From Acidobacteriota bacterium (GTDB lineage: Bacteria > Acidobacteriota > Terriglobia > Terriglobales > Acidobacteriaceae), in assembly GCA_016196065.1 (NCBI GenBank), contig JACPYL010000010.1:1302001-1366000 (forward strand): 64,000 nucleotides of DNA, read 5' to 3'. Shown piece by piece: positions 38,926-41,975 of the stretch (positions are counted from its first letter, which is position 1; each line of letters opens with the position of its first letter). The translations under genes and the position numbers were made by a program. The notes beneath the pieces are model-generated. The model saw only the letters and a program-made list of their open reading frames with translations, was not told the origin of the DNA and ran no database searches.

Positions 38926-40734
38926 CTAAACAGGACCGGCATCGGCTTCGCTGTACATCGTATCGATCATGGCTTGGTAGCGTTCTTCAATCCCTCGGCG
39001 GCGCACCTTCATGGTATGGGTAAGAGTGCCGTCGGAGGCGGAAAACTCCTCGGGGACGAGCAATACTCGTTTGAGTTTTTCAAAGCGCGCCAGGTCTTTG
39101 TTTACTTCTTCGATAATACCGTCGTAAAGTGCCTGCACTTTGCCGGACGCAACCAATTCTGCTTTCGACGAGAAAGCCACCTTGTTGGCGCGCGCCCAAT
39201 CTTCGAGAACAGGGAAGTGCGGCGAGATCAATACTGCTGGAAACTTGCGCCGGTCTCCGAGCACCACCGCTGTCCCCACCAGCGGATTCAACTTGAGCAA
39301 ATTTTCGATCGGCTGTGGTGCAATAAATTTTCCGCCCGAGGTCTTGATCAGATCTTTCTTGCGGTCGGTAATCGACAAATACCCATCGCTGTCGAGATTT
39401 CCGATATCGCCCGTCTTGAACCATCCGTCGACAAATGCATCATGAGTATCCTGTGGGCGATTCCAGTAGCCCTGAAAGATGGACGGTCCGCGAACCAGAA
39501 CTTCGCCGTCGTCTGCGATGCGGACCTGTACGTTAGGAAGCGGTTTGCCGACCGTGCCAATCTTGTGTGCAAGCGGAGTATTTACGGCAATGACCGGCGA
39601 TGTTTCCGTGAGCCCGTAGCCCTCATGAATACGAATGCCAATGTTGGCGTACCATTCCGCAAGTTCGCGGCCCAGCGGCGCGCCTCCGGAGATAAACAGA
39701 TCTGCTTTACCACCCATGCCTGCTCGCACTTTCGAAAACAAGAGACTATTTGCGATCGACCAGTCGAGCGATTGGGGCTGAGCTCCTCGCAGCGTCTCGT
39801 CGCGATGTTTGTGTCCTACCGCCAGCGCCCAACGATAGATGGCGCTCTTGGGGAAGTCCGTAGTCTTGAGAATGACCTGTCTCCGGATCTTCTCGTAGAC
39901 CCGCGGCACCCCGACAAAGACCAGGGGCTGAACCTCCCCAAGAGCTTGCTCCAGATTGGCCATGTCCGGACAATAAGCGAGCGCAACTCCCCGATACAGC
40001 ATCGAGAAATCGACATGCCGTGCCGTAACGTGCGAGAGTGGCAGGAACGAAATGCTCACTGCGTTGTCGCCCAGTGCAAAGCCGTCCAGAGAGCAGGCGA
40101 TGTTCGACGCCATGTTGCCGTGCGTGAGCATCGCTCCCTTGGAGTTGCCGGTCGTGCCCGATGTATAGATGATCGTGGCCAGATCGTCCGGCAGGAGAGA
40201 GCGGGCGCGCGCGTCAAAATCCCGATCAGCCTCCGTGGGCCCCTTCATCATGAGAGGCTGCATATGGATGGCATGCGCCGTCTCTACCGCATCCATCACC
40301 GCTATCCGTTCGACAGGCGTTTGAGACTGGATCGCCAGAACTTTTGCAAGCTGTGCGGCAGTGGAAACTGCGATAACCCGTGCTCCGCTGTCATTGAGGA
40401 TGAAAGCAGTTTGTTCGGCAGTTTGCGTGGAGTAGATCGGTACCGTGACTGCGCCCAGGCTGAGGATGGCGAAATCTGTCATCGTCCATTCCGGACGATT
40501 CTCACTCAGGATGGCGACTCGATCGCCTTTGCGAATTCCCCATGACTCAAGCGCTCGAGCCATGCCGACCACATTGCGATAGAGTTCGGTGGATGAGATG
40601 GGGATCCATCCGAGGGCTTTCCGCTCCATCATGACGCGGTCGCGAGCCTGGTTGGAGACTGCCAGCAAGATGTCGTTGAGAGTTTGGAGGCTCATCCCGA
40701 GAAACGCGTTCCCGCAGACATTGTACAGAGCCAT
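38926..40734 (-). CDS. long-chain acyl-CoA synthetase (AMP-forming)
   Basis: A 602-residue AMP-binding ligase of the FadD15/FACL type, activating fatty acids to acyl-CoA. Motifs are [22 protein letters not shown] (P-loop; near residue 198), [13 protein letters not shown] (A5) and [31 protein letters not shown] (A7-A8). The C-terminal A10 lysine region has [14 protein letters not shown]. An internal ATG at 40695 ([10 protein letters not shown]) is an equally good start, since neither site has a strong Shine-Dalgarno sequence. It is divergent from the selenoperoxiredoxin gene. Confidence 0.92.
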
Positions 40735-40845: not shown

Positions 40846-40870
40846 AAGCACAGTGTGGAGGTGCGCAAGG

Positions 40871-41452
40871 ATGAAGCGAAAGTCCGTAGTGAAACTATTG
40901 AGCGCTGGATTGATGGCGGCGGCGGCCATTCTTTCCCCAGGACTCGCGCCGCAACTGCGAGCCGACGATAAACAGCCCGCGCCGATGAAACTAAAAGTCG
41001 GCGATACGGCGCCCGATTTCAAACTGCACTACTTCGACGGAAACGATCTGAAAGAAGTTTCCCTGAGCCAGTATCGCGGCAAGAAGAACGTCGTGTTGGC
41101 GTTCTATATATTTGCGTTCACCGGTGGTTGAACCGCGCAAATGAAGGCTTTCCAGCAGAATTTGCAGAAGCTGGAAGCCACTGACACCCAGGTTCTGGGT
41201 GTAAGCATGGATAGCGCCTTCGCCAACAAAGCCTTCGCCGACTCCATCGGCGTGACCTTCCCGCTACTGAGCGACTGGGGAGGAGACATCACCCGCCAAT
41301 ACGGCATCTACCTGGACAAATACAAAGCGCCGCGCAGGATTAATTTTCTGATCGGCAAAGACGGGAAGATTCTGGAAGAGCAACTGGACGACTCCGCCAT
41401 CGATCCAACGAAAATTGTGGATGCGTGCGAGCGCAAGAAACTGAATCGATAA
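40871..41452 (+). CDS. exported peroxiredoxin with in-frame TGA (selenocysteine) at the peroxidatic position
   Basis: A 193-residue thioredoxin-fold peroxidase of the AhpC/TSA or BCP type, read through a TGA at 41129-41131 (codon 87). A signal peptide ([24 protein letters not shown]) precedes [19 protein letters not shown]. The active-site loop reads FYIFAFTGG, then TGA, then TAQMKAFQQ. This aligns with the TxxC of peroxiredoxins, so selenocysteine (U87) replaces the peroxidatic Cys. Downstream motifs [18 protein letters not shown] and [14 protein letters not shown] are intact. The only cysteine is Cys186, a candidate resolving residue. GGAGG lies nine bases before the ATG. The frame on both sides of the TGA is well preserved, and a SECIS-like hairpin follows. 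It should reduce peroxides in the periplasm. Confidence 0.88.
41146..41179 (+). promoter_or_regulatory. bacterial SECIS-like hairpin
   Basis: The 5' arm GGCTTTCCAGC (41146-41156) pairs with GCTGGAAGCC (41170-41179) to give 10 base pairs with a single bulged U at 41151. The 13-base loop (41157-41169) has G at its second position. The stem begins 14 bases and the loop 25 bases after the TGA. This meets the published bacterial SECIS criteria as I know them: loop of 3-14 nt, G in the first two loop positions, upper stem 4-16 bp, and loop 16-37 nt from the UGA. It would recruit SelB. Confidence 0.8.
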
Positions 41453-41465
41453 TCTGGTTTCGGAC

Positions 41466-41502
41466 TATTTCTCGTCCACTCGCCGCCGGTGGACGAGAAA
41501 TA
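41466..41502 (+). terminator. perfect 14-bp hairpin after the selenoperoxiredoxin gene
   Basis: The arms TATTTCTCGTCCAC (41466-41479) and GTGGACGAGAAATA (41489-41502) are perfect inverted repeats around a nine-base loop, 13 bases after the stop codon. No T-tract follows directly, so it may act as a weak terminator, an RNA-stability element or a REP-type hairpin. It separates the gene from the tRNA promoter. Confidence 0.6.
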
Positions 41503-41527
41503 ATCGCGTCTTAACTGGCATGGAAGT

Positions 41528-41720: not shown

Positions 41721-41975
41721 TTCGCCTGGTGCCCCAGGTTCGCGCCCCGTTTTCAAGTTCAGCCACACGAATACTCAGGTTTTGGGGAGCTAACCTGGGC
41801 CATAGCTAAACGACGCGACCGCCCAACTGCGGGCGCAGTTTTCTCACCATGCCACGCGATCTGTAGGGATACTAGGAATGCGGCCAATTTTTCTAAGCCC
41901 AGGTTAGCGCCCCGAGAACCGATCATCGGAAATCGGCCGTTCGTACGGTGGCGCGAACCTGGGGCACCGGGCGAA
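41721..41975. repeat. large inverted-repeat element downstream of tRNA-fMet
   Basis: Two arms face each other. The outer blocks (41721-41746 and 41950-41975) match over 25 of 26 positions, and each contains the internal hairpin CCTGGTGCCCCAGG. The inner blocks (41778-41800 and 41897-41920) share GCTAACCTGGGC in inverted form with a few mismatches. The central 96 bases are unique. The 76-base left arm recurs as a direct copy at 42533-42608. The element lies in a 383-base non-coding stretch immediately after a tRNA, a favoured site for mobile insertions. No ORF was seen inside it. Confidence 0.75.

Follow-up and report, generated by a model that had tools for sequence, protein, structure and literature searches.

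The window analysed here is a stretch of 64,000 nucleotides from the genome of an Acidobacteriota bacterium (5.5 Mb, reported 100% complete). It carries a peroxiredoxin gene interrupted by an in-frame TGA, with the following features:

40857..40863, + strand: GGAGGTG ribosome binding site, spaced 7 nt from ATG 40871 (read by eye from the sequence)
40871..41452, + strand: predicted selenoperoxiredoxin gene with the TGA read through, 193 aa, AhpC/TSA family
40871..40963, + strand: predicted signal peptide (hydropathy and AxA test), residues 1-31, probably cleaved after A31
41120..41122, + strand: Thr84 of the TxxU motif (T in 80/80 close loci)
41129..41131, + strand: TGA codon 87, predicted selenocysteine at the peroxidatic position (alignment and conservation)
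41149..41177, + strand: hairpin 1, a 13-nt loop on the stem 41149-41156 / 41170-41177, proposed as bridging spacer (pairing, conservation, RNAalifold)
41184..41202, + strand: hairpin 2, proposed SelB-recognised SECIS, ACACCCAG, loop GTT, CTGGGTGT (pairing, conservation, RNAalifold)
41336..41338, + strand: Arg156, invariant in 29 rows
41426..41428, + strand: Cys186, proposed resolving cysteine (conservation)
41463..41505, + strand: possible terminator 3' of the gene, 17-nt inverted repeat with a 9-nt spacer (repeat search)

The frame runs from ATG 40871 to TAA 41450-41452, giving a read-through product of 193 residues; under the standard code the gene falls into two ORFs. The upstream ORF starts at GTG 40589 in the ORF list, and ATG 40871 has the GGAGGTG upstream. 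An earlier reading made from the sequence alone (the sequence-only reading) had described an ORF stopped by TGA 41129-41131 whose frame stays open to 41452, and the coordinates are as it described. It had also named residue 186 as the sole cysteine, and the frame indeed holds a single Cys codon. Its statement that both halves keep peroxiredoxin sequence agrees with the Pfam AhpC-TSA match, which spans the TGA (residues 43-167, 117.6 bits for a cut-off of 26).

The active site was then compared with that of Cys peroxiredoxins, an alignment which the same reading had proposed as a check. As expected there, Cys falls at residue 87: in the PDB alignment its counterpart in both 2ywn and M. tuberculosis Rv2238c is the AFTxxC cysteine, and natural Cys orthologues have TGT or TGC exactly at the TGA position in three distant cases (L117, L124 and L126). 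Of the motif claimed, PxxxTxxC, Thr and U are kept, and Pro is replaced by Ile80. At the Pro position the 80 close rows have I (62), V (17) and P (1); in a set of 89 rows Pro is present in 14/15 Cys forms vs 21/74 Sec forms. Arg156 occupies the active-site Arg position of peroxiredoxins. Cys186 is present in 79/80 close loci, the remaining one being a gap, and by eye in 25/33 distant rows, the three Cys orthologues among them; it is probably a resolving cysteine. The export signal proposed earlier is likely according to a simple hydropathy and AxA test. With start codons picked by rule, the same simple test finds a hydrophobic N-terminus in 79/80 close loci and an AxA-like site in 77/80, and A31 itself is present in 68/80. 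The protein is thus likely to be exported.

Relatives were collected from 101 genomes and from GTDB contigs, and both homologue searches were made without requiring a stop codon. The close family comprises 80 loci at E 1e-20 (L001, L031-L109); genome and contig sources share species, and the distinct post-TGA sequences number 66. The contigs bear titles such as Acidobacteriaceae, Terriglobia and Candidatus Sulfotelmatobacter, and one is labelled Alphaproteobacteria. A Cys homologue from Spirochaetaceae (L110, 28% identity) lies below the close-family filter. The equivalent of codon 87 is TGA in 80/80 close loci. Downstream of it, substitutions in the close family number 1512/775/3140 by codon position, an inequality which indicates that coding continues past the TGA. 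Both results support the earlier view that a chance nonsense mutation is unlikely. Distant orthologues have either TGA or Cys at this position, and a phylum-wide search (149 genomes) gave one TGA in each of the 21 best rows. In an 89-row tree, from which a Ser form (L005) was excluded, a 55-row clade of 54 Sec forms and one Cys form has moderate support (89/87). Judged from these genes, the predicted selenoperoxiredoxin is a lineage-wide family. A TGA peroxiredoxin of another bacterial family (L163, genome G127) nests in the window's family, in a 22-row clade supported at 97/93, and bears the two-hairpin signal described below; placement and signal together suggest that the Sec gene may have been transferred. 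Adjacent TGA-containing peroxiredoxin genes (L114 and L115) were observed in two relatives (G085, G099).

The search of the genome for selA, selB, selC and selD, also proposed by the earlier reading, found all four. Profile scores are 380 bits for selB, 549 for selA and 364 for selD, all above their cut-offs; the tRNA-Sec (selC) scores 67 bits and is reported by ARAGORN as SeC (tca). The tRNA-Sec threshold was set at 57 bits because a 47-bit match proved to be a tRNA-Ser by ARAGORN. Among relatives, 57 genomes contain a TGA row at E < 1e-25, and selB or tRNA-Sec is present in 56 of them. In the exception, G047 (75% complete), neither selB nor tRNA-Sec was found beside the TGA form. The 75 genomes that are at least 90% complete are divided as follows: TGA and machinery in 51, TGA without machinery in 0, machinery only in 15 and neither in 9; the TGA form thus occurs in 0/9 genomes without selB and tRNA-Sec. 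The corresponding Fisher p of 1e-5 is indicative only, the genomes being kin and kinship being uncorrected.

Distant orthologues provide a reference for the recoding signal. Most of their TGA rows contain a compact hairpin, which typically reads UAUCA-GGC-UGAUA and places the loop 23 nt downstream of the TGA. A strict scan for this compact SECIS was passed by 41/45 distinct distant TGA rows vs 18.6% after synonymous recoding, and by 3/15 Cys homologues (many of them remote) vs 13.9% after recoding. The distant rows are counted as 45 and not 46, one locus (L111, G045) having been moved to the window's family. In 26 hand-picked distant rows, codons 7-10 hardly vary (TAT 25/26, CAG 26/26, GCT in 21/21 Ala, GAT in 25/25 Asp), and codon choice is unconstrained at positions 19 and 23 (Thr 10/5/5/4, Gly 15/8/2). 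Two of the Cys orthologues show something similar: L124 passes a lax compact scan with a spacing of 37, and L126 has a 4-bp compact hairpin.

The window's family has a different arrangement of two hairpins. Numbering from the U of UGA, hairpin 1 pairs nt 21-28 with 42-49, and hairpin 2 pairs 56-63 with 67-74 around a loop that is mostly GUY; in the window the hairpin 2 loop starts at a distance of 60 nt from the TGA. The family form of this distal hairpin is ACACCCAG-GUY-CUGGGUGU, whose CAGGUYCUG resembles the E. coli fdhF loop. All 8 pairs of hairpin 2 form in 61/66 rows vs 7.3% after recoding (maximum 18%), although the protein motif TQVLG itself favours the hairpin, since recoded rows keep 6.3/8 pairs. 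Hairpin 1 has 7/7 pairs in 45/66 rows vs 17.8% after recoding, and its pair 28-42 is broken in 9/65 rows. An alignment of 37 hand-picked rows (A3: 35 close-family rows plus L160 and L163) was used for the RNA model R1 and for a shuffle test. On these 37 rows RNAalifold found both hairpins unaided (-19.5 kcal/mol). Paired cells amount to 97.0% (94.9 for hairpin 1, 99.0 for hairpin 2) vs 26-46% in slid versions, and 0/500 shuffles matched the observed pairing or covariation on any of five measures. Covariation in the 37 rows is thin, with two-sided change in 4 pairs (7/592 cells). Taken by itself, the window sequence shows no better folding than its shuffles over the first 65 nt (z -0.86). Stem codons, picked after viewing the data, show a one-codon usage of 0.99 in hairpin 1 (4 codons) and 0.96 in hairpin 2 (6 codons), compared with 0.65 in the other 12 codons of 1-26 and 0.64 in 93 outside codons; L053, one codon shorter, was excluded. 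The lowest-entropy six-codon run of the examined stretch, found without choosing, is 18-23.

To describe how the two signals are distributed we used a scan requiring at least 7/8 pairs of hairpin 2 and allowing register shifts of up to two codons. Hairpin 2 is present in 69/69 rows of the window's family, and the compact SECIS in 2/69. Distant TGA rows show the reverse: compact SECIS in 44/45, hairpin 2 in 1/45. The Cys rows (n=16) contain 3 compact SECIS and 1 hairpin 2. Hairpin 2 and the compact SECIS are distributed complementarily. A subfamily of the L144 type, with hairpin 2 in 5/6, was set aside and may also have a short proximal hairpin. Of 3374 candidates in the source genome 150 were scored with R1, and this gene was the only match among them. 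Across 119 genomes of the phylum, the R1 search yielded 14 matches, spread over 12 genomes; placed by coordinates or by translation, all 14 lie inside TGA peroxiredoxin genes. Seven of these belong to other selenoperoxiredoxins of the phylum, of TPTU and TPVU types (L188, L189, L190, L193, L195, L197 and L198), and have a hairpin-2-like element at the same offset with 7 or 8 of 8 pairs; as they were selected by R1 they are a lead only. In the window Rfam reported nothing but a tRNA.

Fold windows farther downstream of the TGA scored better, which pointed to hairpin 2 rather than hairpin 1 as the signal. The published bSECIS model places the apical loop 16-37 nt from the UGA, with a loop of 3-9 nt having G in its first two positions and a stem of 4-16 bp (PMC13188914). 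Hairpin 2 fits the loop and stem rules (8 bp, 3-nt loop GUU) and fails that of spacing, with its 60 nt and a second conserved hairpin lying between; hairpin 1 fails by its 13-nt loop. Subtracting the 29 nt of hairpin 1 gives a UGA-to-loop spacing of 31 nt, which is within 16-37, and from this arithmetic we infer that hairpin 1 acts as a bridge. It is reasonably probable, from pairing and conservation, that hairpin 2 is the SelB recoding signal. With slightly less assurance, we favour a new bacterial SECIS class in which the compact hairpin would have been replaced, in the window's family, by a GU-loop hairpin 60 nt distal, brought to about 31 nt by a bridging hairpin, and which would serve old, nearly Sec-only exported peroxiredoxins of Acidobacteriota with [I/V]xxxTxxU and a Sec-Cys186 pair. 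Some putative bSECIS elements are stated to lie outside the model (PMC13188914); a distal, bridged SECIS would be one class of them.

Other explanations of the TGA and of the hairpins were weighed. A pseudogene, or a sequencing error turning a Cys codon into TGA by chance, would explain the two fragments seen under the standard code; the coding constraint downstream and the RNA signals that accompany the TGA speak against it, its presence in 80/80 close loci rules it out, and we give it practically no weight. Through a non-standard tRNA or genetic code, UGA might instead be decoded as Cys, Ser or Trp, and allo-tRNAs are reported from Acidobacteria (PMC7609411). This is very improbable in a genome with a full Sec pathway and a UCA tRNA-Sec, all the more as the TGA form tracks selB and tRNA-Sec; TGA is moreover the terminal stop of 48/80 of these genes, which excludes a genome-wide reassignment. 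We infer Sec insertion at UGA 41129-41131, and the segment 40871-41452 very probably encodes an exported selenocysteine peroxiredoxin. Which hairpin SelB would read is less settled. Hairpin 1 could be the SECIS, leaving hairpin 2 for ribosome slowing, folding or another regulator: its loop lies at a normal distance (25 nt), has G at the second position in 60/66 rows and is carried by frozen stem codons, and earlier bSECIS models admitted larger loops. Most of its loop codons are free, however; it is hairpin 2 that shows the GU loop pattern and the longest run of frozen codons, and rows with a compact SECIS hardly ever have hairpin 2. We consider this assignment doubtful and retain hairpin 2 as the candidate signal.

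For the protein, peroxide reduction by Sec87 with resolution by Cys186 appears to be the best reading of the conserved residues. A selenoprotein acting mainly as thiol oxidoreductase, sensor or relay would be in keeping with the replaced motif Pro, the predicted export and the conserved Cys186; the retention of TxxU, Arg156 and a complete AhpC/TSA domain makes a role other than peroxide scavenging unlikely. A one-Sec, AhpE-like enzyme, with a structural role for Cys186 and resolution of Sec87 by an outside thiol, deserves more consideration. One of the nearest solved structures is that of Rv2238c, a cytosolic one-Cys AhpE; the conservation of Cys186 in close and distant rows, the three Cys orthologues included, argues the other way, and we regard the one-Sec scheme as a possible but less probable one.

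The TGA and its conservation, the selenocysteine machinery, both hairpins and the conserved residues are directly visible in the sequences, and a pathway can be proposed from them. SelA would charge the UCA-anticodon tRNA-Sec with selenophosphate supplied by SelD, and SelB would bring Sec-tRNA to UGA 41129-41131. The SelB signal would most likely be the distal GU-loop hairpin at 41184-41202, and hairpin 1 (41149-41177) would fold away the RNA in between, leaving an effective spacing of about 31 nt. Once exported, the protein may reduce peroxides by Sec87 together with Thr84 and Arg156; Cys186 would probably resolve Sec87 as a selenenyl sulfide, which a partner in the envelope would then reduce.

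Selenoperoxiredoxins are already known, and Prx (TxxU) is a long-known selenoprotein family. With bacterial Prx (TxxU) such as PrxU of Eubacterium acidaminophilum, the window protein shares a UGA-encoded peroxidatic Sec after Thr-x-x and the AhpC/TSA domain. It differs from PrxU by its signal peptide, I/V for the motif Pro and a C-terminal Cys, and it scores 83.9 bits with the NCBIfam PrxU equivalog NF040737, below the cut-off of 270. The best PDB sequence match is 2ywn / 4g2e (80 bits over residues 41-181), which are Cys forms keeping the motif Pro (FYPAAFTQVCT). AhpE-type M. tuberculosis Rv2238c (PDB 5id2, 4x1u) is a near solved relative with its AFTGxC strand on U87; it is also a Cys form. 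In published surveys, Prx (TxxU) counts 12 members (PMC1794560) or 91 members (PMC5029168), and 4 selenoproteins are given for Acidobacteria (PMC1794560) and 3 for Occallatibacter riparius (PMC12013277). No description of the exported family or of a distal two-hairpin SECIS was found among the titles and abstract starts of a partial literature collection, and both appear to be new. The sequence-only reading had judged an exported selenoperoxiredoxin unusual in an acidobacterium; selenoperoxiredoxins as such are known, and the predicted one here is lineage-wide. A conserved secreted selenoperoxiredoxin would imply that the envelope of soil acidobacteria has a Se-dependent defence against peroxides, encoded by a gene split under the standard code. 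The relocated signal matters more than the selenoperoxiredoxin itself: with a published loop range of 16-37 nt, genes with a distal signal could be missed. Since both signal types occur in one orthologous family, the needs of SelB (position, loop, folded distance) become directly testable.

Two further peroxiredoxins were noted in the source genome (G000), both on the - strand. L004 (G000:C12:32526-32942) has a peroxidatic TGA (HPLDWTPTU) followed by a strong proximal hairpin. L005 (G000:C25:103412-103807) is peroxiredoxin-like with Ser at the place of the catalytic Cys (YPFNWQEAS), and is probably without peroxidase activity. Around the window gene, a divergent AMP-forming acyl-CoA synthetase-like gene (38926-40734, - strand; name read from its translation) is kept in 47/50 close loci and gives no clue to function. 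PADLOC gave no match, and plasmid matches were all below 60% identity. On the other side, the region 41721-41975 looks like a small mobile element: its 26-nt inverted repeats are 96% complementary and separated by 203 nt, and a second pair is nested with them; 16 bases of the repeat arm are present 10 times in the genome.
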